Assembly (NCBI RefSeq): GCF_002007645.1
Contig: NZ_CP019791.1
Coordinates: 1,612,001 to 1,676,000, forward strand
Direction: 5' to 3'
Origin: Anaerohalosphaera lusitana
Lineage (GTDB): Bacteria; Planctomycetota; Phycisphaerae; Sedimentisphaerales; Anaerohalosphaeraceae
DNA: 64,000 nt
The notes under the pieces: generated by a model
The model's database searches: none
Told to the model about the DNA's origin: nothing
What the model saw: the letters and a program-made list of their open reading frames with translations, nothing else
Shown: piece by piece, positions 49,579-61,155 of the stretch
Position numbering within the stretch: position 1 is the first letter of the stretch
Layout of the letters: the number at the start of each line of letters is the position of its first letter
Position numbers and translations under genes: made by a program

Positions 49579-50211
49579 ATGCCGGTCAACCGCAAATGCA
49601 TAATAAGGCTTTCGCGATATAAGAACGCTCTTCAGCGGCTAAAAGCGCTGGGTTTTGTCAAAGTGTTTTCCGACAACCTGGCCGATGCTGCGGGCGCTAC
49701 CCCATCGCAGGTTCGCAAAGACTTCTCCCTGTTCGGCATCACCGGCAATCGTCGCGGCGGCTATGTCGTAGACGAGTTGATCGAGCAGCTTCGCGAGATC
49801 CTCGGCAAGAATGAGACACAAAAGGTCGTGCTTGCTGGTGTCGGAAACATCGGCAGGGCACTAATGCGTTACGAGGGTTTCGGCGGCGGAGGCATCAGCA
49901 TCCTCGCGGCTTTCGATATCGACCCAGCCAAATTTGACGAAAATGCGGATATTCCGATCCTGCCACTGGAACGTATGCACGATTTTATTAGTGAGAACGA
50001 CGTAAAGATCGGAATCCTCTCCGTACCCGACGTAGCGGCTCAGCAGGTTTCCGAGCTCATGCAGGCGGCAGGCATAAAGGGTATACTGAACTTCGCCCCC
50101 ATTCAGCTCAGGGGCGATGATGGCGCGATAATCAACAGCATCAATCTGGAGGTTGAGCTGGAGAACCTGATCTATTTTGTCAACGCAGCCAAAAAAGGAG
50201 TGAAGGAATGA
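49579..50211 (+). CDS. rex: Redox-sensing transcriptional repressor Rex
   Basis: Rex senses the NADH/NAD+ ratio and represses fermentation and hydrogenase genes. The 210-residue length is typical. N-terminal winged HTH with ATPSQVRKDFSLFG, then a Rossmann domain with VVLAGVGNIGRALMRY and C-terminal GILNFAPIQL. It has its own operator upstream. Its stop overlaps the start of the sensor kinase gene (ATGA), tying redox repression to the two-component protein and hydrogenase genes downstream. Confidence 0.95.
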   Translation: MPVNRKCIIRLSRYKNALQRLKALGFVKVFSDNLADAAGATPSQVRKDFSLFGITGNRRGGYVVDELIEQLREILGKNETQKVVLAGVGNIGRALMRYEGFGGGGISILAAFDIDPAKFDENADIPILPLERMHDFISENDVKIGILSVPDVAAQQVSELMQAAGIKGILNFAPIQLRGDDGAIINSINLEVELENLIYFVNAAKKGVKE

Positions 50212-52052
50212 TAAGATTCAGCACACTCCGCGGTAAGATATTCACAGCGTTTTTCGCGGTAATCCTCGCACTCGGCCTGTCGATCTTCTTTCTTGGCTAT
50301 ACTCTGGTAGAGGACAACATCGTAGAGCGTGCCCAGCAAGAGGTTGAACATGACCTGGCCAGTGCACGGTCATTTTATCAGGCCGAGATACAGCGGATCG
50401 GTGAGGATCTGCGATTGATAGAGTTTGACGGGAATGTTGAAAAGGTCCAGCAGAAGATAGGTCTGGATTATGCCCGTTACGTCGATAAGAACGAGGCGCC
50501 GCAGGTTCAAAGCGAAATAGTTCAGGCGGCATTCGAGAAAAACGAGGGTGTCGGCGGCACGCGGCTTATACCGAATGAAGAGCTGCAGAGTTACGATGAG
50601 CAGCTTGTAGCAGAACATTCCATAGCCATCAAACCAACGCCGATGGCTCGGCCCACAACTAAAGAAGTTACACAGAAAGTGATGAGCAAGGAATACGCTC
50701 TTCCGATCCGCGATGCGGATGGTGATATAGAAGGTGTCCTTTACGGCGGCCGTATCGTCAATCGTGACCATGCGTTGGTGGACCGGATCAGGTATCTTGT
50801 TTTCGGCCACGAGTCATATGAAGGCAAACCTGTCGGCACTGTTACGATTTTCCAGGATGACGTTAGGATCTCGACGAATGTTGTCAACGAAGACGGCAGC
50901 AGGGCGATAGGTACGCGTGTCTCGGACGAGGTTTACAGCAAAGTCGTCGAGCAAGGCAAGGTCTGGCACGATCGAGCATTCGTTGTAACTGACTGGTACA
51001 AAACAGCTTACGAGCCGATCGAGACGATTGAAGGCGAGATTGTCGGCATTCTCTATGTCGGCATACTCGAGGCGCCCTTCGTTGATATGGCCAGGGGTAT
51101 TATGGGTTGGTTCCTGGTTATAGTTCTTTGCGGAACGTTGTTTGCAGGTGTGCTGTCTTATCTGATGGCAGGTGCCGTCTCCAGACCCTTGACCCATCTG
51201 CTGGAGGGCATAGAAAATCTCTCCGGCGGTAATCTCGGCTACGAGTCGCCGGTCAGGTCCTCGGTGGTCGAGATAAACAGACTTGCTAGCAGTTTCAACA
51301 TAATGTCTGTCCGGCTCAAAGAACGTGACGAAAGCCTCAAAGAATCCAATGCCAAGCTCGAAGACCTGAACCAGAGATACCTGGAGCTGCTGGGATTCGT
51401 TGCCCACGAACTCAAAGGCATGCTCGCTTCGACGATCATGAACGCCTATTCCATACGAGACGGTTTTCTCGGAATGATCAATTTCAAGCAGAAAAGGGCG
51501 GTCGATTCGATCACGCGAAACCTTGATTACCTTGCCGCCACGGTAAAGAAGTTCCTGAACCTAAGCCGGATCGAGCGTGGCAAGCTGGAGCTGAACAAGT
51601 CCGAATTTGCGATCGGGCCCGAGGTGTTCGATATTTCGGTCAAGACCTTCGATAAACTGCTCAGTGACAAGGGTATGAAGGTCGAAAACAAGATCGATCC
51701 TGAGATGAAAGTCAGTGCGGATCTCGATCTGCTGCAGATAGTTGCAAATAATCTTATCAGTAACGCCGGTAAATATGGAACCGAAGGCGGCGTAATTCGA
51801 ATAGATGCCCGGAACGAGGATAACTTTACTGTTGTCGAGGTTTACAACGACGGCAGGCCCATTTCTCAGGAAGCAATGGGGCATCTGTTCAAGAGGTTCT
51901 CCCGGCTCGATACGCCGGAGAAAAAGACCGTCAAAGGAACCGGGCTGGGTCTGTTTATTACCCGGCAAATAGTCGAGGCGCATGGTGGTGACATAAAAGT
52001 GGTACCAGGTGAAAACGGCAATACGTTTGTTTTCCGAATTGAAAGGGAATAA
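50208..52052 (+). CDS. Membrane sensor histidine kinase with periplasmic Cache-like domain
   Basis: A 614-residue kinase. TM1 (FTAFFAVILALGLSIFFLGY) and TM2 (GWFLVIVLCGTLFAGVLSYLM, about 300-325) bracket a 270-residue extracytoplasmic domain that looks like a Cache sensor. HAMP follows TM2, then a coiled coil, the H-box FVAHELKGMLAS (His400), and the ATPase domain with NNLISNAGKYG and GTGLGLFITRQIVEAHGG. It is translationally coupled to rex and followed 4 nt later by the 2Fe-2S protein gene. The lone receiver encoded after hydE may be its partner. The signal is unknown. Confidence 0.9.
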   Translation: MIRFSTLRGKIFTAFFAVILALGLSIFFLGYTLVEDNIVERAQQEVEHDLASARSFYQAEIQRIGEDLRLIEFDGNVEKVQQKIGLDYARYVDKNEAPQVQSEIVQAAFEKNEGVGGTRLIPNEELQSYDEQLVAEHSIAIKPTPMARPTTKEVTQKVMSKEYALPIRDADGDIEGVLYGGRIVNRDHALVDRIRYLVFGHESYEGKPVGTVTIFQDDVRISTNVVNEDGSRAIGTRVSDEVYSKVVEQGKVWHDRAFVVTDWYKTAYEPIETIEGEIVGILYVGILEAPFVDMARGIMGWFLVIVLCGTLFAGVLSYLMAGAVSRPLTHLLEGIENLSGGNLGYESPVRSSVVEINRLASSFNIMSVRLKERDESLKESNAKLEDLNQRYLELLGFVAHELKGMLASTIMNAYSIRDGFLGMINFKQKRAVDSITRNLDYLAATVKKFLNLSRIERGKLELNKSEFAIGPEVFDISVKTFDKLLSDKGMKVENKIDPEMKVSADLDLLQIVANNLISNAGKYGTEGGVIRIDARNEDNFTVVEVYNDGRPISQEAMGHLFKRFSRLDTPEKKTVKGTGLGLFITRQIVEAHGGDIKVVPGENGNTFVFRIERE

Positions 52053-52056
52053 CGAA

Positions 52057-52410
52057 GTGGCAACTCCATTAGACATTGTCAAAAAAAAGCGAGCCCAGGC
52101 TGTAAGCAAGATCATCAGCAAGGGGTATCTCTCAACCAAGCGTGTATATGTAGGTATGGCGACTTGTGAGATAGCCGCTGGATCAAAAGAGGTCATGGCT
52201 GTTTTCAAAGACGCTATGGCCAAAGGTCTTACGGACGTATATTTGAGCCAGAAGGGCTGTGCGGGCCGCTGCAATCTCGAGCCAACAGTTGAGATCGTCG
52301 AAGAAGGAAAGATCCCCGTCAAGTACGGCAAGGTCGACGAAAAGAAGGCTCGCGAGATCATCGAGCGGCATATCAAAAATGGTGAAATTATCGAAGAATG
52401 GCTGATATAA
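52057..52410 (+). CDS. Thioredoxin-like [2Fe-2S] ferredoxin-type subunit of the hydrogenase
   Basis: A 117-residue protein from GTG 52057. It has VGMATCEIAAG (Cys37) and QKGCAGRCNLEP (Cys68, Cys72), the pattern of thioredoxin-fold 2Fe-2S domains encoded before NuoF-like subunits of bifurcating hydrogenases. Only three Cys are seen in the expected region, where NuoE-type domains have four, so cluster ligation may be incomplete or different. It lies 4 nt after the kinase and 18 nt before hydB. Confidence 0.8.
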   Translation: MATPLDIVKKKRAQAVSKIISKGYLSTKRVYVGMATCEIAAGSKEVMAVFKDAMAKGLTDVYLSQKGCAGRCNLEPTVEIVEEGKIPVKYGKVDEKKAREIIERHIKNGEIIEEWLI

Positions 52411-52428: not shown

Positions 52429-54222
52429 GTGCCTACGAATGAATATGTAATAACATTATGTGACGGGCCGAGCTGTCTGCATCGCGTTTCTCGTGAAGTA
52501 CGTGATGCCGTCGAAGAATCGCTCGAAAAGCACGGTAAGAGTGACAGCGTAAGGATCCATCTATCCGGTTGTCTGGGCATGTGCAGCAAGGGACCGATCA
52601 TGATCGTCAACCCCGGCTACACGATCTACGGCAAGATCACTCCTGAAGATGCTGTTAACATTGTTGAGCAGCACATAGTCAATGGTCAGCCGGTTGCGGA
52701 TAAGGTGGTCAATGAGGACCATCTCTACAATCGCTTTTTCAGGATATTCGGAGATAACGACTTCTTCGGCAAGCAGATGCGGATCACCCTTCGCAACTGC
52801 GGCATCATCGACCCCGAGAATATCGACGACTACCTCTCGCTAAGAGGTTACGAAGCACTTGCTAAGGTTCTCACCGACATGAGTCCGCAGGACGTCATCG
52901 ACGAGGTCAAAAAGGCAGGCGTTCGCGGTCGAGGCGGCGGCGGTTTCCCGACCGGCATGAAGTGGGACTTCACAGCGCGAGAACAGAGCGACCAGAAATA
53001 CGTTATATGTAACGCTGACGAAGGTGACCCCGGTGCGTTCATGGACCGCAGTGCCATCGAAGGCGACCCGCACACGGTGCTGGAAGGCATGATCATCGGC
53101 GGTTATGCGATCGGTGCCAGCAAGGGTATCGTCTACATTCGTGCCGAGTATCCGCTGGCGATCAAAAGGCTCGAAAAAGCTATCGCCGACGCAAAAGAGC
53201 ACGGCTTCCTGGGCGAGAATATTCTCGGTTCCGACTTCTCTTACGATCTCGAGATCAGACTCGGTGCCGGCGCATTTGTCTGCGGTGAAGAGACTGCCCT
53301 GATCCACTCGATCGAGGGTTCTCGCGGTATGCCCAGGCCAAGGCCTCCTTATCCCTCGCAGAGCGGTCTGTTCGGCAAGCCCACGCTGATCAACAACGTC
53401 GAAACATGGGCAAACGTCCCTGTGATCATCCTTGATACCGGCGAATGGTTCAGCAGCATCGGCACCGAAAAGAGTAAGGGTACCAAAGTATTCGCGCTGG
53501 CTGGTAACGTTAACAATACGGGACTTGTTGAGGTTCCGATGGGTACGACCCTCCGCGAGATCGTTTACGATATCGGCGGCGGACTGCCCGAGGGCAAAAA
53601 GTTCAAGGCTATCCAGACGGGTGGCCCCTCCGGTGGATGTCTGCCGGCTGAGTATCTCGATACCCCGATCGACTATGAGCATCTTGCCAAGGCCGGCTCT
53701 ATCATGGGCTCCGGCGGTATGATCGTCATGGACGAAGATTCCTGCATGGTAGACGTTGCAAAGTTCTTCCTGCAGTTCACCCAGGACGAGTCTTGCGGCA
53801 AGTGTACGCCCTGTCGCGAAGGCACCAAGCGAATGCTCGAGATCCTCACCCGGATAACCGAAGGCAAGGGGCAGGAAGGTGACATCGAAAAGCTCGAACG
53901 GCTGGGCAACATGGCCAGAAAAGCATCGCTTTGCGGTCTGGGGCAGTCGGCACCTAATCCGGTACTGAGCACGATCAAGAATTTCAGAGTTGAATACGAA
54001 GAACATATCAATGAAAGCAAATGCCGTGCGGGTTCATGTAAGTCCATGCTGTCGTTCGTTATCACGGACGCTTGTGTCGGCTGCGGAGCGTGCAGGCGTG
54101 TTTGTCCGGTGGATGCGATTACCGGCGGCCGTAAGGAAAAGCATGTGATCGACCAGGAAACATGCATCAAGTGCGGTCAGTGCTTTGAGGTATGTAAATT
54201 CCAGGCTGTAGAAAAGGCATAA
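52429..54222 (+). CDS. hydB: [FeFe]-hydrogenase NADH/FMN-binding subunit HydB (NuoF-like)
   Basis: A 597-residue flavoprotein that passes electrons between NADH and the iron-sulfur chain; in bifurcating hydrogenases this subunit is a flavin site. Domains: an N-terminal thioredoxin-like 2Fe-2S domain (Cys11, Cys16, Cys48, Cys52), FMN/NADH-binding GVRGRGGGGFPTGMKW and NADEGDPGAFMDR, a 4Fe-4S site ESCGKCTPCREG, and a C-terminal two-cluster ferredoxin domain (CVGCGACRRVCPVDAI, CIKCGQCFEVCKF). GTG start at 52429. Followed 12 nt later by hydA. Confidence 0.94.
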   Translation: MPTNEYVITLCDGPSCLHRVSREVRDAVEESLEKHGKSDSVRIHLSGCLGMCSKGPIMIVNPGYTIYGKITPEDAVNIVEQHIVNGQPVADKVVNEDHLYNRFFRIFGDNDFFGKQMRITLRNCGIIDPENIDDYLSLRGYEALAKVLTDMSPQDVIDEVKKAGVRGRGGGGFPTGMKWDFTAREQSDQKYVICNADEGDPGAFMDRSAIEGDPHTVLEGMIIGGYAIGASKGIVYIRAEYPLAIKRLEKAIADAKEHGFLGENILGSDFSYDLEIRLGAGAFVCGEETALIHSIEGSRGMPRPRPPYPSQSGLFGKPTLINNVETWANVPVIILDTGEWFSSIGTEKSKGTKVFALAGNVNNTGLVEVPMGTTLREIVYDIGGGLPEGKKFKAIQTGGPSGGCLPAEYLDTPIDYEHLAKAGSIMGSGGMIVMDEDSCMVDVAKFFLQFTQDESCGKCTPCREGTKRMLEILTRITEGKGQEGDIEKLERLGNMARKASLCGLGQSAPNPVLSTIKNFRVEYEEHINESKCRAGSCKSMLSFVITDACVGCGACRRVCPVDAITGGRKEKHVIDQETCIKCGQCFEVCKFQAVEKA

Positions 54223-54234
54223 GGAAATATTGAC

Positions 54235-56007
54235 ATGAGCGATATGATTAAGATTTACATAAACGGAAGAGAATACGAGGTAGCAGCGGGCCAGACGATC
54301 ATGGAAGCCGCTGACAAGCTCGGTTACCATATCCCGCGGCTGTGCTACCATCCCAAGCTTTCGATCGAGGGTGCATGCAGAGTATGTATCGTCGAGGTCG
54401 AAGGAATGCGTAACTTCGTTGCTTCTTGTGCTTACCCTGTTACTGAAGGGATGAAGATCCGCACGAATACAAAAGAGATCCGCCGAACAAGGCGTGACAT
54501 CGTCGAGTTGATCCTTGACAACCATCCGCAGGACTGCCATACCTGTGAGCGCAACAGTAACTGTGAGCTGCAGCGTCTGTCCGAGTCGATGGGTATCCAG
54601 AGACGGCACTTCGAAGGCGAGAAGAAACATTACGACAAGGACCTCAGTTCACCTGCTGTCGTGCGTGACCCGGATAAATGTATCCTTTGCGGCCGATGCG
54701 TTCGGATGTGTTCGGAAGTGCAGAACATCCATAACCTCACGCAGGCCCACCGAGGCTTTAAGACTGTTGTAATGCCCGCGTACAATATGCCGATGGATGA
54801 AAGCGTCTGTTCGACATGCGGCCAGTGCATCAACGTATGTCCCACAGCAGCGTTCATGGAATACAACTATACTCAGGACCTGTTCGAAAAGCTAAACGAC
54901 GATTCACTCACGAAAGTCGTTCAGTTCGCCCCAGCCGTAAGAGCGGCGATTGGCGAAGCGTTCGGCATGGCGCCCGGCAACAATATGGAAGGTCAGCTCG
55001 TCGCCGCACTGCGTAAGCTCGGGTTCGATTATGTCTTCGATACCCAGTTCTCTGCCGATCTGACGATTATGGAAGAAGGCAGTGAGTTCCTCGAGAGACT
55101 GCAGAACAAGGGCAAACTACCGTTGATAACGTCCTGTTCACCGGGTTGGATGAAATGCGTCGAGCAGTTCTATCCTGATATGCTGGACAACATCTCGACA
55201 TGCAAGTCGCCGATGTCAATGGCCGGTGCCCTGATTAAGACTTACTTCGCCGAAAAGATCGAGACCGATCCCAAGAAGATACTCAGCGTTGCTGTTATGC
55301 CCTGTACCGCCAAAAAGTACGAAGCCGACCGGCCCGAACTCGAAGTCGACGGCATGAAAACCACAGACATCGTCATCACCACACGTGAGCTGGCGTGGAT
55401 GATCAAGTCTGCAGGTCTTGACTTTATCAATATGCCGGGCGAAAAGCCCGACGCTCCAATGGGCGTTTCTTCCGGTGCCGGCGCGATCTTCGGTGTTACC
55501 GGCGGAGTTATGGAAGCAGCCATCAGAACCGCATATGAACTTTTCACCGGCGAAACACTCGTTGACATCGAAATGGATAACCTTCGCGGCCTGTCCGGTG
55601 TGAAGGAAGGTAAACTTGAGATCGACGGCGAAGAGATACGTATCGCTGTTGCACACGGTCTTGGTAACGCTTCAAAGCTGTTCGACATAGTTCGCAAGGA
55701 GCCCGATCGGTTCCACTTCATCGAGATCATGGGATGCCCGGGCGGATGTATCGGCGGCGGTGGTCAGCCTTACTGCCATGCATTCTCTGAGTCGCTCGGT
55801 GAAGAATGTCTCGCAGCCAGGGCCAAAGCTCTCTACGATATCGATCGCGGCAAGACGATCCGCCGTAGTCTGGATAATCCGGACGTTCAGAAGCTATACA
55901 AGGAATATCTGCAGAGGCCCATGAGTGAGATGTCGCACAAACTGTTGCACACTCATTACAAGGCGCAGGAACCAAAGGGTATTATACCAGCTAAGAGTAA
56001 AAGATAA
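54235..56007 (+). CDS. hydA: [FeFe]-hydrogenase catalytic subunit HydA
   Basis: A 590-residue catalytic subunit. The N-terminal 2Fe-2S domain uses Cys37, 48, 51 and 65; a His-ligated cluster (HPQDCHTCERNSNCELQ) and two 4Fe-4S clusters (CILCGRCVRMCSEVQ, CSTCGQCINVCPTAAF) follow. The H-cluster motifs are SCSPGWMKC (Cys301), MPCTAKKYE (Cys357) and MGCPGGCIGGGGQP (Cys501, Cys505). With HydB and HydC it should form a soluble NAD- and ferredoxin-linked complex that makes or uses H2. No Tat or Sec signal, so cytoplasmic. This is group A3-like by gene composition. Confidence 0.96.
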   Translation: MSDMIKIYINGREYEVAAGQTIMEAADKLGYHIPRLCYHPKLSIEGACRVCIVEVEGMRNFVASCAYPVTEGMKIRTNTKEIRRTRRDIVELILDNHPQDCHTCERNSNCELQRLSESMGIQRRHFEGEKKHYDKDLSSPAVVRDPDKCILCGRCVRMCSEVQNIHNLTQAHRGFKTVVMPAYNMPMDESVCSTCGQCINVCPTAAFMEYNYTQDLFEKLNDDSLTKVVQFAPAVRAAIGEAFGMAPGNNMEGQLVAALRKLGFDYVFDTQFSADLTIMEEGSEFLERLQNKGKLPLITSCSPGWMKCVEQFYPDMLDNISTCKSPMSMAGALIKTYFAEKIETDPKKILSVAVMPCTAKKYEADRPELEVDGMKTTDIVITTRELAWMIKSAGLDFINMPGEKPDAPMGVSSGAGAIFGVTGGVMEAAIRTAYELFTGETLVDIEMDNLRGLSGVKEGKLEIDGEEIRIAVAHGLGNASKLFDIVRKEPDRFHFIEIMGCPGGCIGGGGQPYCHAFSESLGEECLAARAKALYDIDRGKTIRRSLDNPDVQKLYKEYLQRPMSEMSHKLLHTHYKAQEPKGIIPAKSKR

Positions 56008-56024: not shown

Positions 56025-56528
56025 ATGATAGAAGCTAAAGATAACAAATTGCAGGAAGTCAGGGATTTTATTGCAGGTACGAAGCAAAAGGATTACCCCG
56101 AATCGTATCTCATAGCAGTTCTGCACAAGGTCCAGGAACTCTACGGTTACCTGCCGCAGGACGTGATGGACTTCGTAGCCGAAGAAATGCAGGTCCCGAC
56201 TGCCCACATCTGGGGCGTTGCGACTTTTTACCACTACTTTAACCTTGAGCCCATCGGCAAGCATGTGGTAAGTGTATGTATGGGTACAGCATGCTATGTT
56301 AAAGGTGCCGACAAGGTTCTGGACGCACTGAAGGGCGATCTGGGCGTCGAAGCAGGCCAGACAACCGAAGACGGCCTGTTCACGCTCCAGGAAGCACGGT
56401 GCCTGGGTGCGTGCGGTATCGCGCCTGTCATTATGATCGACGACAAGATCTACGGTGAACTGACGGCCAAAAGCGTGGTTGACCTTCTCAACCAGTATCG
56501 CAAAGCTGAATCTGCAGGAAAGAAGTAG
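56025..56528 (+). CDS. hydC: [FeFe]-hydrogenase [2Fe-2S] subunit HydC (NuoE-like)
   Basis: A 167-residue NuoE-family protein: an N-terminal helical bundle (YLIAVLHKVQELYGYLPQDVM) and a thioredoxin-like 2Fe-2S domain with Cys85, Cys90 (CMGTAC) and Cys126, Cys130 (CLGAC). It relays electrons in the HydABC complex. GGAG is 7 nt before the ATG. The hydG start follows its stop by 2 nt. Confidence 0.94.
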   Translation: MIEAKDNKLQEVRDFIAGTKQKDYPESYLIAVLHKVQELYGYLPQDVMDFVAEEMQVPTAHIWGVATFYHYFNLEPIGKHVVSVCMGTACYVKGADKVLDALKGDLGVEAGQTTEDGLFTLQEARCLGACGIAPVIMIDDKIYGELTAKSVVDLLNQYRKAESAGKK

Positions 56529-56530
56529 TA

Positions 56531-57919
56531 ATGAAACACATTGACGCAGCCAGAATAGAGCAGTTACTCCAAAAGCACAGCAAGACAGACAATGCAAAGG
56601 TCGACGCTGTGCTCGACAAGGCCAGGTCCCTGCAGCGTTTGACGCTGGAAGAGACCGCTGTGCTGCTGGCTGCGGACGATGCCCAAAACACCGAAAAGAT
56701 CATGGAGGCGGCAGCATACGTCAAGGACGCCATCTATGGCAAACGCGTTGTCCTCTTCGCACCGCTCTACATCAGCAATGCATGCGTCAACAACTGCCGC
56801 TACTGCGGTTTCAAGTGCGAAAATCGCTCCGTTGACCGCCGCAGCCTGACTCCCGAAGAGATCAAGGAGCAGGTTTCATGGCTGTTGAACCGAGGCCACA
56901 AGCGAATACTCATGGTCGCGGGCGAAGCACTGAATTTCGACGGCAAGAAAGCGATCGACTATTACTGCGATTCCGTGCAGGCGATATATGACGCCCAGGC
57001 TGGCAAAAATCGGATCAAACGTGTAAACGTCAATGCCGCCCCGCTCAGCGTCGAAGAATTCAAACAGCTCAAAGGTATCGGAATAGGAACCTACCAGGTA
57101 TTCCAGGAGACCTATCACGACGAAACTTACAGATATATGCATCCTTCGGGCCCCAAGAGCGATCCGGATAACCGCATAAATGCGATCGACAGAGCATTCG
57201 CAGCCGGCATCGATGACGTCGGCATAGGCGTGCTTTACGGGCTTTACGATTACAAATTCGAGACGCTTGCCATGCTGATGCACTGCGAGCACCTCGAGAA
57301 TAAATTCAACGTCGGCCCCCACACCATCTCAGTGCCCCGAATAGAGCCTGTCGCCGGCAGCGATGTCAGTGAAAACGTTCCTCATCCGCTGACCGACGAA
57401 GATTTCATGCGGCTGGTCGCGATACTGCGTCTCTCCGTGCCGTACACCGGCATCATACTTTCGACCCGCGAAACGCCCGAAATGCGTGACATACTGGTTC
57501 ACCACGGCGTGTCGCAGATAAGCGCCGAATCCCGCGTTTCCCCCGGCGGCTACGACGACGAAGAAACCGAAGAAGGCATTCAGTTCACCCTCGGCGACCA
57601 CCGCACACAGGACGAGATCATCGGTTCCCTGCTGGAACAGGGATATCTGCCCAGCTTCTGTGCCGCCTGCTACCGCAAGGAACGTACCGGCGAGCGGTTC
57701 ATGAGCCTTGCAAAACCCGGCGCTATCAAAGGCATGTGCCAGGTCAACGCACTGGTCACCCTGAAAGAATATCTGGACGATTTCGCGTCCGACTCGGTCA
57801 AACAGGCCGGTTATAAGCTCATTAACAAGCAGATAAACAGTTTGACCGGCACCGACCGCGAGATCCTGCGGGACATGTTCAAACATATCGATGATGGCGT
57901 GAGAGATGAATATGTCTGA
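56531..57919 (+). CDS. hydG: [FeFe]-hydrogenase maturase HydG (tyrosine lyase)
   Basis: Radical SAM enzyme that cleaves tyrosine to make the CO and CN ligands of the H-cluster. The 462-residue length fits. The radical SAM cluster motif is Cys85-x3-Cys89-x2-Cys92 (CVNNCRYCGF); the C-terminal region has CAACYRKERTGERFM, the second cluster site of HydG, and GMCQVNALVTLKEYL. It overlaps the hydE start. Confidence 0.96.
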   Translation: MKHIDAARIEQLLQKHSKTDNAKVDAVLDKARSLQRLTLEETAVLLAADDAQNTEKIMEAAAYVKDAIYGKRVVLFAPLYISNACVNNCRYCGFKCENRSVDRRSLTPEEIKEQVSWLLNRGHKRILMVAGEALNFDGKKAIDYYCDSVQAIYDAQAGKNRIKRVNVNAAPLSVEEFKQLKGIGIGTYQVFQETYHDETYRYMHPSGPKSDPDNRINAIDRAFAAGIDDVGIGVLYGLYDYKFETLAMLMHCEHLENKFNVGPHTISVPRIEPVAGSDVSENVPHPLTDEDFMRLVAILRLSVPYTGIILSTRETPEMRDILVHHGVSQISAESRVSPGGYDDEETEEGIQFTLGDHRTQDEIIGSLLEQGYLPSFCAACYRKERTGERFMSLAKPGAIKGMCQVNALVTLKEYLDDFASDSVKQAGYKLINKQINSLTGTDREILRDMFKHIDDGVRDEYV

Positions 57920-58964
57920 TGTGCGTGCCGTTTTAAACCGCGTATATACGGCTGATATGCCCGATCTGCGTGATATCGAGTATCTGCTTTCGCTCGAAGA
58001 TGCCGATCAGATCGATGAGCTATACAAGTTCGCCGATAACGTAAGGCGAGAGCAGGTCGGTGACGGCGTACTGCTGCGAGGAATAGTTGAATTTTCGAAT
58101 TACTGCAGGAATACCTGTGCGTATTGCGGTTTGAACAAGTATAATAAGCAAATTCGACGATATCGCATGGCTCACGATGAGATCATGGCCTGCTTGGATA
58201 AGATCGTCAGTTGCAATACAAAAACGGTTGTTCTGCAGTCCGGCGAAGAAGATGAGCTCGATGCCGCTTGGCTGCAGGACTTGCTCTTCAAAATAAAAGA
58301 TAAGCACGATATCGCTGTAACGCTCTCGCTCGGTGAAAGAAGTGACCAGGAGTTCGAGATGTGGCGAAACGCCGGCGCTGACCGCTACCTGCTCAAGATC
58401 GAAACTTCCGACAAGCAGCTCTATGAAAAGCTGCATCCGGAAATGAGCTTCGATCGACGCGTTGAGTGCTTGCGTAAGCTCGGCTCGATGGGTTATCAAC
58501 TGGGCAGCGGCTGTATGGTCGGTCTCAAAGGTCAGACGACCGCCAGTCTCGCTCGCGACGTACAGTTTTTCGTCCGCGAGAAGATCGCCATGATCGGCAT
58601 CGGCCCGTTCATACCTCACAGCCAGACCGAGTGTGCAAATCACGCATGCGGAGACGTCGAGCTGGTGTGCAAAATGACGGCCGTAACAAGGATCGCGACA
58701 AAGAACACGCATATGCCCGCAACGACGGCATTAGGCAGCCTGGGCAACGGCGATATGAGATTGAAAGCACTGGCGTGCGGGGCAAATGTTCTGATGCCCA
58801 ACTTCACGCCGGTAGAGTATAAAAAACTTTACGAGATTTACCCGGGCAAACGCTGCGTTAACGAGCCTACGGGCGCATGCAGCGGATGCATGGAAAAAAT
58901 GGTGAAGTCTATAGGTAGATATGTTGACTGGGCACGGGGTGATACGTTAAAAAGTTACAACTAA
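57912..58964 (+). CDS. hydE: [FeFe]-hydrogenase maturase HydE
   Basis: Radical SAM maturase that works with HydG and HydF on the diiron site. About 350 residues from ATG 57912, chosen because GAGAG is about 8 nt upstream; ATG 57906 is the alternative. The radical SAM motif CRNTCAYCG gives Cys65, Cys69, Cys72. Other HydE-like features are VLQSGEEDE, LSLGER and GPFIPHSQTE. It overlaps the end of hydG, so translation is coupled. Confidence 0.95.
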   Translation: MSDVRAVLNRVYTADMPDLRDIEYLLSLEDADQIDELYKFADNVRREQVGDGVLLRGIVEFSNYCRNTCAYCGLNKYNKQIRRYRMAHDEIMACLDKIVSCNTKTVVLQSGEEDELDAAWLQDLLFKIKDKHDIAVTLSLGERSDQEFEMWRNAGADRYLLKIETSDKQLYEKLHPEMSFDRRVECLRKLGSMGYQLGSGCMVGLKGQTTASLARDVQFFVREKIAMIGIGPFIPHSQTECANHACGDVELVCKMTAVTRIATKNTHMPATTALGSLGNGDMRLKALACGANVLMPNFTPVEYKKLYEIYPGKRCVNEPTGACSGCMEKMVKSIGRYVDWARGDTLKSYN

Positions 58965-59056: not shown

Positions 59057-59440
59057 ATGGCCAAGAGAGTATTGATTATCGACGATGACGCAGATTTTCG
59101 CGAGTCAATTGCGAATTTGCTGGAAGCTAAGAACTATAACGTATCTGCTGCAGCAAATGGCCAGGAAGGTATCGAAAAAGCAAAGTCTGATACGCCGAAT
59201 ATCATCCTTCTGGATGTTATGATGACCACAAAGTCCGAGGGCTTTGACGTAGCTCGCGAGCTTCAGAAAATCGACTCGCTCAAGGGCACACCCGTCATCA
59301 TGATCACGGGCGTTCGCAAGGAAATGAACCTGCCGTTCGGTTTCGAACCGGACGAAGACTGGCTCCCCGTAAAGGACGTGCTCGAAAAGCCCGTCAAGCC
59401 TGAGGATCTGCTCAAGGCCGTTCAAAAGTACATAAAATAA
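59057..59440 (+). CDS. Stand-alone response regulator receiver protein
   Basis: A 127-residue CheY-like protein: acidic pocket Asp9-Asp11, phosphoacceptor Asp53 (IILLDVMM), Thr in VIMITG and Lys in VLEKPVKP. It has no output domain, so it must act through another protein. An unusual insertion between strand 4 and helix 4 (GVRKEMNLPFGFEPDEDWLP) distinguishes it from CheY. Located between hydE and hydF. The kinase gene downstream of rex is the obvious partner. Confidence 0.88.
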   Translation: MAKRVLIIDDDADFRESIANLLEAKNYNVSAAANGQEGIEKAKSDTPNIILLDVMMTTKSEGFDVARELQKIDSLKGTPVIMITGVRKEMNLPFGFEPDEDWLPVKDVLEKPVKPEDLLKAVQKYIK

Positions 59441-59447
59441 ATTTTTG

Positions 59448-59532
59448 CCTCCTCCTCCTCCTTTGGTTTGGCGTCCACACGGGCGCCAAAGGATGGGGCT
59501 GGGAAAATTTCTTCCGGCCCCATCATATTTTT
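59448..59532 (+). ncRNA. CCUCC-rich double-hairpin RNA element, copy 1
   Basis: Beginning 8 nt after the receiver stop codon: CCTCCTCCTCCTCC (59448-59461), then a 10-bp hairpin (59467-59476 with 59481-59490, loop ACAC), then a GC-rich 10-bp hairpin (59493-59502 with 59514-59523) followed by TTTTT (59528-59532), a typical terminator. CCUCC matches the anti-Shine-Dalgarno of 16S rRNA, so the run could bind ribosome-binding sites. Two more copies follow. Confidence 0.6.
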
Positions 59533-59658
59533 AATGCAAATGGGGAGCTTTACCGATATAATGTAAACATGATGGGGTTGCGGTACCGTTTTGAACTTAC
59601 GGGCGACTGCATGAAATAAGCTGATGAGATTATCAGCACTATCAAGATTTAATTTTGT

Positions 59659-59742
59659 CTCCTCCTCCTCCTCCTTTGGTTTGGCATTCAACAGGATGCC
59701 AAATAGTAGGGTCGGCCACCTTGCCGGCCCTACACTTTTCTT
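59659..59742 (+). ncRNA. CCUCC-rich double-hairpin RNA element, copy 2
   Basis: CTCCTCCTCCTCCTCC (59659-59674), a 10-bp hairpin (59680-59689 with 59694-59703, loop AACA), and an 11-bp hairpin (59706-59716 with 59723-59733) followed by TTTT. Stem bases differ from copy 1 but remain paired. A perfect TATAAT at 59557-59562, with a poor -35, could start a separate small RNA ending here. Confidence 0.6.
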
Positions 59743-59832
59743 CAAAGGAATGGTAGGTATGCTTGCCTGTTTTTTTGAAGCTGAACAAAGGTTCGGCTAT
59801 GAAAAACGGCGGCAAATAGATAATTCACTCTT

Positions 59833-59904
59833 CCTCCTCCTTCAGTTTGGCACCTCCAGGGTGTCAAAGGATGGGGCTGGGCTCAGATTCCAGCCCCCAT
59901 TTTT
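59833..59904 (+). ncRNA. CCUCC-rich double-hairpin RNA element, copy 3, at the hydF leader
   Basis: CCTCCTCC (59833-59840), a 9-bp hairpin (59846-59854 with 59860-59868), and a terminator hairpin ATGGGGCTGG (59871-59880) with its complement at 59890-59900 and five T. The hydF AGGAG is only 12 nt beyond the T-run, so no promoter fits between; hydF must be expressed by read-through. The CUCCU of this copy can also pair with hydF AGGAG. Confidence 0.6.
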
Positions 59905-59928
59905 ATTCACTTCTTCAGGAGTATTGTG

Positions 59929-61155
59929 ATGCTCAAGACACCCAAAGCTCTGAGACTGCACATAGGAATTTTCGGCAGACGCAATGTCGGCAAGTCCTCG
60001 GTCCTCAATTCGCTTCTTAGTCAGCAGGTCTCTATCGTGTCCGAAGTGGCCGGAACAACCACCGACCCTGTTGAGAAGGTCATGGAGCTGCAGCCCGTCG
60101 GCCCGGTGGTTTTCGTGGACACAGCCGGAATCGATGATATCGGTGCACTTGGCAAGATGCGGGTGGACAAAACATACAAAGCAATCGAAAAGACCGACCT
60201 TGCCCTGGTGGTGACAGACCGCTGGCAGGAGTATGAGCAGAAACTTTGCGCAATGCTCAAAGAGCAGGGCGTCCCCGTTATCGTGGTTACCAACAAGGCC
60301 GATCTGCGCAACGATGGCGAGCTCGAAGAGCATATCCGGGACCTGAAAGTGGGCCCCGTGGTCGCTACGAGTATAGTAAAGGATGAAGGCATTTCCCGGC
60401 TGCGTCAGCAGATCATCGAAATTTCCGAGGATGTACGGATCGAAAAAGACACACTGCTCGGCGGGCTCGTAAACGACGGCGATACGGTTGTCCTCGTGGT
60501 GCCGATAGATATCGAGGCTCCGAAGGGCAGGCTGATACTCGCACAGGTACAGACCCTGCGCGAGGTGCTCGATGCGAACTGCTGTGCAATGGTGGTCAAA
60601 GAGAACATGCTCGAACAGACGCTCACCAATCTCAAACAGCCCCCCGCACTGGTGGTCACGGACAGCCAGGCATTCGCCCAGGTTTCAAAAACCGTTCCCG
60701 CTGATATACCTCTGACTGGCTTTTCGGTTCTGTTCGCTAGGTACAAAGGCGACCTCTGCTCGATGGTCGAGGGCGCCATGGCCATCGAGGAATTGAAGGG
60801 CGGTGACAAGGTGCTGATCTCCGAGGCATGTTCGCATCACCCGATAGGCGAGGATATCGGGCGGATCAAGATACCGCGATGGCTGCAAAGTTACGTCGGT
60901 GATGACCTGGACATCGAGGTAGCCGCAGGACGTGATTTCCCAGAGGACCTCTCCGACTACAAACTGGTGATACACTGCGGAGCCTGCGTATGGAACCGCA
61001 GGCAGGTGCTCTCCCGCATAGACATTGCAAGAAAGGCCCAAGTGCCGTTCACCAACTACGGCCTTACGATCGCCTACAGTCTGGGCGTTTTCGAGAGGGC
61101 CTTACAGCCGTTCGACGATGCAATGACGATCTACAAGGAACTGGCGAAGAAGTAA
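59929..61155 (+). CDS. hydF: [FeFe]-hydrogenase maturation GTPase HydF
   Basis: Scaffold GTPase on which the diiron subcluster is assembled before transfer to HydA. 408 residues from ATG 59929 (AGGAG 7 nt upstream; the GTG at 59926 is too close). N-terminal GTPase: P-loop GRRNVGKSS (16-24), GTTTDPVEK, DTAGIDD, TNKAD. C-terminal cluster-binding domain: EACSHHPIGED (Cys301) and IHCGACVWNRR (Cys350, Cys353), matching the CxH-x46-53-HCxxC signature. Expression appears subject to the three upstream hairpin elements. Confidence 0.95.
   Translation: MLKTPKALRLHIGIFGRRNVGKSSVLNSLLSQQVSIVSEVAGTTTDPVEKVMELQPVGPVVFVDTAGIDDIGALGKMRVDKTYKAIEKTDLALVVTDRWQEYEQKLCAMLKEQGVPVIVVTNKADLRNDGELEEHIRDLKVGPVVATSIVKDEGISRLRQQIIEISEDVRIEKDTLLGGLVNDGDTVVLVVPIDIEAPKGRLILAQVQTLREVLDANCCAMVVKENMLEQTLTNLKQPPALVVTDSQAFAQVSKTVPADIPLTGFSVLFARYKGDLCSMVEGAMAIEELKGGDKVLISEACSHHPIGEDIGRIKIPRWLQSYVGDDLDIEVAAGRDFPEDLSDYKLVIHCGACVWNRRQVLSRIDIARKAQVPFTNYGLTIAYSLGVFERALQPFDDAMTIYKELAKK

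Follow-up and report, generated by a model that had tools for sequence, protein, structure and literature searches.

A three-copy array of putative anti-Shine-Dalgarno RNA elements between a receiver gene and hydF in Anaerohalosphaera lusitana, and an analogous family across Sedimentisphaerales

Small RNAs (sRNAs) with anti-Shine-Dalgarno (anti-SD) motifs are known as tandem or multicopy siblings from Neisseria, Listeria, and Alphaproteobacteria. NmsRA and NmsRB of Neisseria meningitidis are near-identical sRNAs lying in tandem in one intergenic region, whose anti-SD motifs lower the translation of metabolic enzymes; the two copies have their own promoters and are under RelA control (PMC5362039). 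LhrC1-5 of Listeria monocytogenes are multicopy sRNAs whose CU-rich single-stranded regions bind AG-rich SD regions; their CU-rich sites number three, some of them in loops, and their promoters depend on LisR (PMC5880928). CcsR1-4, or "cuckoo" RNAs, of Alphaproteobacteria are related units from the 3' untranslated region (3'UTR) of one mRNA, carrying an anti-SD motif and present in several copies per genome (PMC8625941, PMC3927594). Rhodobacter CcsR1-4, NmsR, and LhrC provide working precedents for SD occlusion (PMC8625941, PMC3927594, PMC5362039, PMC5880928). Here, we analyzed a stretch of 64,000 nucleotides (nt; hereafter the window) of the closed 4.25 Mb genome of Anaerohalosphaera lusitana (Planctomycetota, order Sedimentisphaerales), in which three tandem elements, e1, e2, and e3, lie between a receiver-domain gene and hydF of a hydrogenase cluster. 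We predict, with a probability of roughly 0.55, that this array encodes 3'UTR-derived sibling sRNAs that occlude SD sites in trans. Our search for literature on small RNAs of Sedimentisphaerales found none.

The three elements (e1, 59448-59532; e2, 59658-59739; e3, 59828-59904) share one layout, in which an unpaired CUCC-run is followed by a UUUGGC hairpin and then by a terminator hairpin rich in GC:

59448..59464, + strand: e1 unpaired CU-run CCUCCUCCUCCUCCUUU (anti-SD seed)
59467..59490, + strand: e1 hairpin 1 (UUUGGCGUCC / GGGCGCCAAA)
59492..59532, + strand: e1 GC-rich hairpin 2 and T-run (intrinsic terminator)
59658..59678, + strand: e2 unpaired CU-run
59680..59703, + strand: e2 hairpin 1
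59706..59739, + strand: e2 hairpin 2 and T-run (ACUUUUCUUC, weak U-tract)
59828..59842, + strand: e3 unpaired CU-run CUCUUCCUCCUCCUU
59846..59868, + strand: e3 hairpin 1
59873..59904, + strand: e3 hairpin 2 and T-run

The direct repeats start at 59448, 59661, and 59827, with copy spacings of 213 and 166 nt and ungapped identities to copy 1 of 84% and 67%. All three centroid folds left the CUCC-run unpaired, with hairpin 1 (loops ACAC, AACA, and CCA) and then hairpin 2 behind it, and the minimum free energy (MFE) z-scores against dinucleotide shuffles were −4.9, −5.9, and −2.5 for e1-e3. On the + strand, each of the three second hairpins coincides with a strong terminator-like site, a GC-rich hairpin followed by a U-run, as in intrinsic terminators. 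The T-runs begin 2-3 bases past the stems (AUAUUUUU, ACUUUU, and CAUUUUU), so that the terminators look suboptimal. Since e1 begins 7 nt past the receiver stop codon, it constitutes the 3'UTR of that gene, and at the other end the third T-run (59900-59904) stops 12 nt 5' of the hydF AGGAG (59917-59921). AU-rich stretches directly 5' of every CU-run belong to the repeat itself (family D2).

The stems of the array plainly drift yet stay paired. In an alignment of the three copies (A3) with the structure set by hand, standard pairs filled 60 of the 60 aligned pair cells across both helices, and five pairs, spread over hairpins 1 and 2, were altered on both sides; this combination was reached by 8 of 500 shuffles, and sliding the partner strand by 1-3 columns left 0-1 double-changed pairs. 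In hairpin 1, the covarying pairs were pair 7 (G-C/A-U/A-U), pair 8 (U-G/U-A/C-G), and pair 9 (C-G/U-G/C-G). The CUCC-run was the best-kept segment, differing in 2 of 36 comparisons (6%); the corresponding figures were 23-26% for stems and 60-74% for loops. Furthermore, CTCCTCCT occurs nine times in the window (expected 2.0), and eight of these occurrences fall within the array. A comparison of e1 with e2 showed more nonsynonymous than synonymous codon differences in each of the forward frames (8:1, 8:1, and 7:3), suggesting that selection probably acts on RNA and not on a peptide. The original prediction, made from the window alone, had described three tandem copies with a CCUCC run and a double hairpin, covariation at these three pairs, a third terminator 12 nt before the hydF ribosome-binding site, and a CCUCC identical to the anti-SD core. 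The repeats, folds, and terminator sites agree with all of this; hairpin 2 proved to covary too, and the anti-SD core proved to be the best conserved of all segments. Selection on RNA structure, which it had also proposed, is likely given the complete pairing and the five double-changed pairs.

BLAST placed the array at one place in its own genome, which rules out a dispersed DNA repeat (REP-like, on both strands, in many copies), the alternative raised beforehand. In a close relative (G004, locus L052), the receiver gene lies directly 5' of hydF, with no array between them. The covariance-model and Rfam searches that had been suggested were run: with a model of the three copies, only e1-e3 matched strongly against 59 relatives (next match, 25 bits), and Rfam at E ≤ 10 returned only chance matches below gathering scores and no family; the LhrC model likewise had no match to the array at E ≤ 10. 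Our terminator statistics for the genome rest on a 744 kb sample, in which CUCCUCC preceded just the three window copies among 95 terminators, ruling out a general habit of placing CUCC before terminators. The looser pattern CTCCTCC-N48-78-CTTTT was not enriched over its control (17 vs 26).

Compared with the described systems, the array resembles NmsR in that similar units (84% and 67% identity to copy 1) are arranged in tandem within a single intergenic region and the anti-SD motif is accessible, the CUCC-run being unpaired in all three centroid folds. Unlike NmsR, it has three copies, stands behind a receiver gene, and places its seed within a long CU-run that is unpaired and lies on the 5' side; sequence kinship between the two was not found. 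In contrast to LhrC, e1-e3 each have one 5' CU-run and no Rfam match. The array resembles CcsR in sitting in the 3'UTR of a coding gene, but its host gene is a hydrogenase-linked receiver, and its motif is unpaired 5' of the hairpins, whereas cuckoo RNAs are recognized by CCUCCUCCC in hairpin loops. The design is known from NmsR, LhrC, and CcsR, whereas the sequence, the lineage, and the seed placement are new. The earlier view that no such element had been described holds for the sequence, which has no Rfam family, but not for tandem or multicopy anti-SD sRNAs as such.

A similar arrangement follows the same receiver gene in other relatives. At loci L050, L060, L094, and L112, CUCCUCC lies 25-29 nt past the receiver stop and is followed by a terminator hairpin, and at L068 the motif lies 15 nt past the stop. 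These five form one group by receiver identity (74-94%), whereas the receivers at L051 and L053 lack the CUCCUCC motif; the association thus occurs in at least two lineages, though it is not universal. In the relatives with CUCCUCC behind the receiver, the next gene is not hydF, which argues against a purely hydF-directed role.

We also found an apparently undescribed family, family B, in which an invariant seed, CAUCACCCUCCUCC, is followed by a terminator, usually in several copies per genome. Across 59 genomes, the seed with at most one mismatch gave 178 matches, against 26 for the reversed control, and a terminator hairpin followed it at 27 of 30 inspected loci, mostly as GAAGCCAG-loop-CTGGCTTTTTT. 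A model (R2) built from 28 copies matched 133 of the 161 genomes of Sedimentisphaerales; among 392 genomes across the phylum, only four weak matches fell outside the order, three of them to the hairpin alone. Copies in relatives are at loci L258-L317, and those of A. lusitana (G000:C1) are at 3559233, 2636710, 3102626, 1497904, and 1972755, with the seed CATCACCCTCCTCC. In one relative (G006), family B copies also form tandem pairs, with spacings of 201 and 248 nt, comparable to those within the array (213 and 166 nt). Read as its reverse complement, GGAGGAGGGTGATG, the seed comprises an SD, a spacer, and AUG, which suggests that the seed pairs across translation starts. No Rfam family fits family B, and a literature search for the seed string gave only unrelated matches. 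The SD of an opposite-strand gene was considered as the source of GGAGGAG and rejected, as minus-strand frames at family B sites are short and unlike each other.

Promoter-like boxes accompany many of these copies. TAAAG-N17/18-CGAT lies 35-91 nt upstream in 37 of 61 copies (shuffles, 0.1), and AAC-N16/17-CGTCTA lies upstream in 6 of 61 (shuffles, 0.03); the two are mutually exclusive, no copy having both (examples: L288-L311, L277, L281, and L357). We take the former to resemble sigma-28 promoters with longer spacing and the latter to resemble those of extracytoplasmic function (ECF) sigma factors. TAAAG-N17/18-TCGATA had three matches in the A. lusitana genome, one of them a family B copy, with no excess over the control, and so pointed to no regulon. 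Within the array, one related site precedes e2:

59532..59561, + strand: candidate e2 promoter TAATG-N17-CGATATAA, one mismatch to the family B TAAAG-N17/18-CGAT box

Given a background frequency of 1.9e-4 per nt, the e1-e2 gap is expected to contain about 0.025 such boxes, and transcription from this one would yield a transcript of approximately 165 nt.

Family B resembles the array in its unpaired CUCCUCC seed directly 5' of an intrinsic terminator, and it is multicopy, sometimes tandem, and present in the same genome. It differs in having a single hairpin where the array units have two, its own promoter boxes, and a 14-nt invariant seed reaching over the start-codon complement. Because the array has no match to R2, we did not file it under family B, which we regard from these likenesses as an analogue of the array and not as proof of its reading.

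The prediction of sibling sRNAs draws on the observed anatomy, covariation, extra conservation of the seed, 3'UTR design of the receiver in the relatives' clade, and order-wide analogous family. The transcription, processing, and trans action of e1-e3 are what we infer. In the proposed scheme, the 3'UTR of the receiver gene would yield e1; e2, perhaps also e3, would come from read-through with processing or from their own promoters; by analogy with CcsR, the AU-rich stretches before the CU-runs could be RNase E-type processing sites. A mature unit would comprise the unpaired CU-rich anti-SD seed, one protective hairpin, and the intrinsic terminator, and would pair in trans with AGGAG-type ribosome-binding sites, lowering translation, while the three copies may increase dose or permit separate control. 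Several points weigh against this scheme. Promoters are weak, e2 having one one-mismatch box, and our searches gave no family-B-type box for e3 and no above-chance sigma-70 sites; three paralogous copies limit the power of covariation; the family B model R2 gives no match to the array; and target prediction picked out no convincing target. By predicted duplex energy with the CU-run, hydF, which had been suggested as a partner of CCUCC, ranked only 452nd of 634 translation-start regions. The best rank in the cluster (17th of 634) was that of the Cache/HAMP kinase gene at 50208, whose start region contains AAAAAAGGAG; as several genes were compared, this is a weak lead.

The main rival is that serial leaky terminators set the transcription reaching hydF, the CU-runs being incidental or binding a read-through-promoting protein. 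We consider this somewhat unlikely, although it could hold together with sibling sRNAs. The 12 nt that separate e3 from the hydF SD leave no space for a promoter, no separate hydF promoter was identified, and the U-tracts are imperfect and offset; moreover, at L052 hydF follows the receiver immediately, so the array may split an ancestral receiver-hydF pair. However, leaky termination explains neither why the CU-run is conserved above the stems nor why CUCCUCC and a terminator stand behind the receiver where the next gene is not hydF. Less probable still is that ordinary terminators were duplicated together with a chance pyrimidine tract and encode no regulatory RNA. Intrinsic terminators are widespread, and their duplication in tandem would be a simple event, but the scarcity of CUCCUCC before terminators in the 744 kb sample, the superior conservation of the seed, and its recurrence at the same gene elsewhere speak against it.

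That the CU-run masks the hydF SD, or the purines behind each terminator, in cis in read-through transcripts seems quite improbable. CUCCU is able to pair with AGGAG, and when e1 and e2 are folded together with the sequence 3' of them, a helix encloses the hairpins. Nevertheless, duplex energies of the CU-runs with the sequence just behind their own terminators were matched by fractions of 0.20, 0.08, and 0.35 of random genomic windows (e1-e3), so such pairing is ordinary, and in the MFE structure predicted for e3 plus the hydF start, the CU-run and the SD did not pair with each other; together with the low rank of hydF, this removes the basis for regarding hydF as the preferred partner. Finally, a 101-aa frame spans e2 and e3, and the copies might be read as a repeat encoding a serine-rich peptide; we rejected this, with negligible residual probability, since e1/e2 codon changes are mostly nonsynonymous in all forward frames while base pairs are retained.

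Beyond the array, we tentatively suggest, as rather less probable than the sibling sRNAs themselves, that the order may use a general anti-SD sRNA layer made up of the sibling family B and lineage-specific 3'UTR versions such as the array. As parts of this joint reading, the family B seed would complement a consensus translation start (SD, spacer, AUG, AAA), its copies would be wired to different sigma factors, and the array would couple hydrogenase expression to the translation of other genes. If true, anti-SD sibling RNAs occur in Planctomycetota besides Proteobacteria and Firmicutes, and the array is a concrete case tying them to hydrogen metabolism. A letter-for-letter seed in a multicopy family across an order, with recognizable promoter boxes, makes a clear and cheap target for RNA-seq.

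The surrounding hydrogenase cluster comprises the following features (open reading frames called from the window sequence; domain names from Pfam):

50208-52052: Cache/HAMP histidine kinase, cluster head
52009-52410: unnamed gene
52429-54222: NuoF-like subunit
54235-56007: [FeFe] hydrogenase
56025-56528: thioredoxin-like ferredoxin
56531-58964: two radical SAM maturases, HydG and HydE by position and domain
59057..59440, + strand: receiver-domain gene (open reading frame; Response_reg, 2.3e-21)
59917..59921, + strand: hydF Shine-Dalgarno AGGAG, from sequence
59929-61155: HydF (HydF_dimer/HydF_tetramer), start ATG at 59929

Elsewhere in the genome, CTCCTCC precedes a terminator at 1497943 (−), 1559605 (+, double hairpin), 1509-1577 (−, double hairpin), 2545435 (−), 2636707 (−), 3102639 (+), 3559246 (+), and 968636 (−), and four of these sites have TTCATCACCCTCCTCC in common, the seed that then turned out to extend across the order. 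At G000:C1:2545435 (L197:1440-1493, −), the CUCC-run and terminator lie 22 nt 3' of an iron-containing alcohol dehydrogenase gene, and CCUCCUU recurs inside the terminator loop; this appears to be a second fermentation gene with a CUCC-terminator 3'UTR design. At G000:C1:968636-968703 (−; L354), CUCCUCCC is followed by a terminator hairpin with CCCUCCC in its loop, and the site resembles, in sequence, loop-borne anti-SD RNAs. Two further sites, G000:C1:3937909 and 3872312 (−), initially seemed element-like but were set aside, being in fact a serine-tRNA-like 3' end with a terminator behind it and a second copy of that 3' end; the latter stands beside integrase/transposase-like frames, and the pair looks like an integration site.
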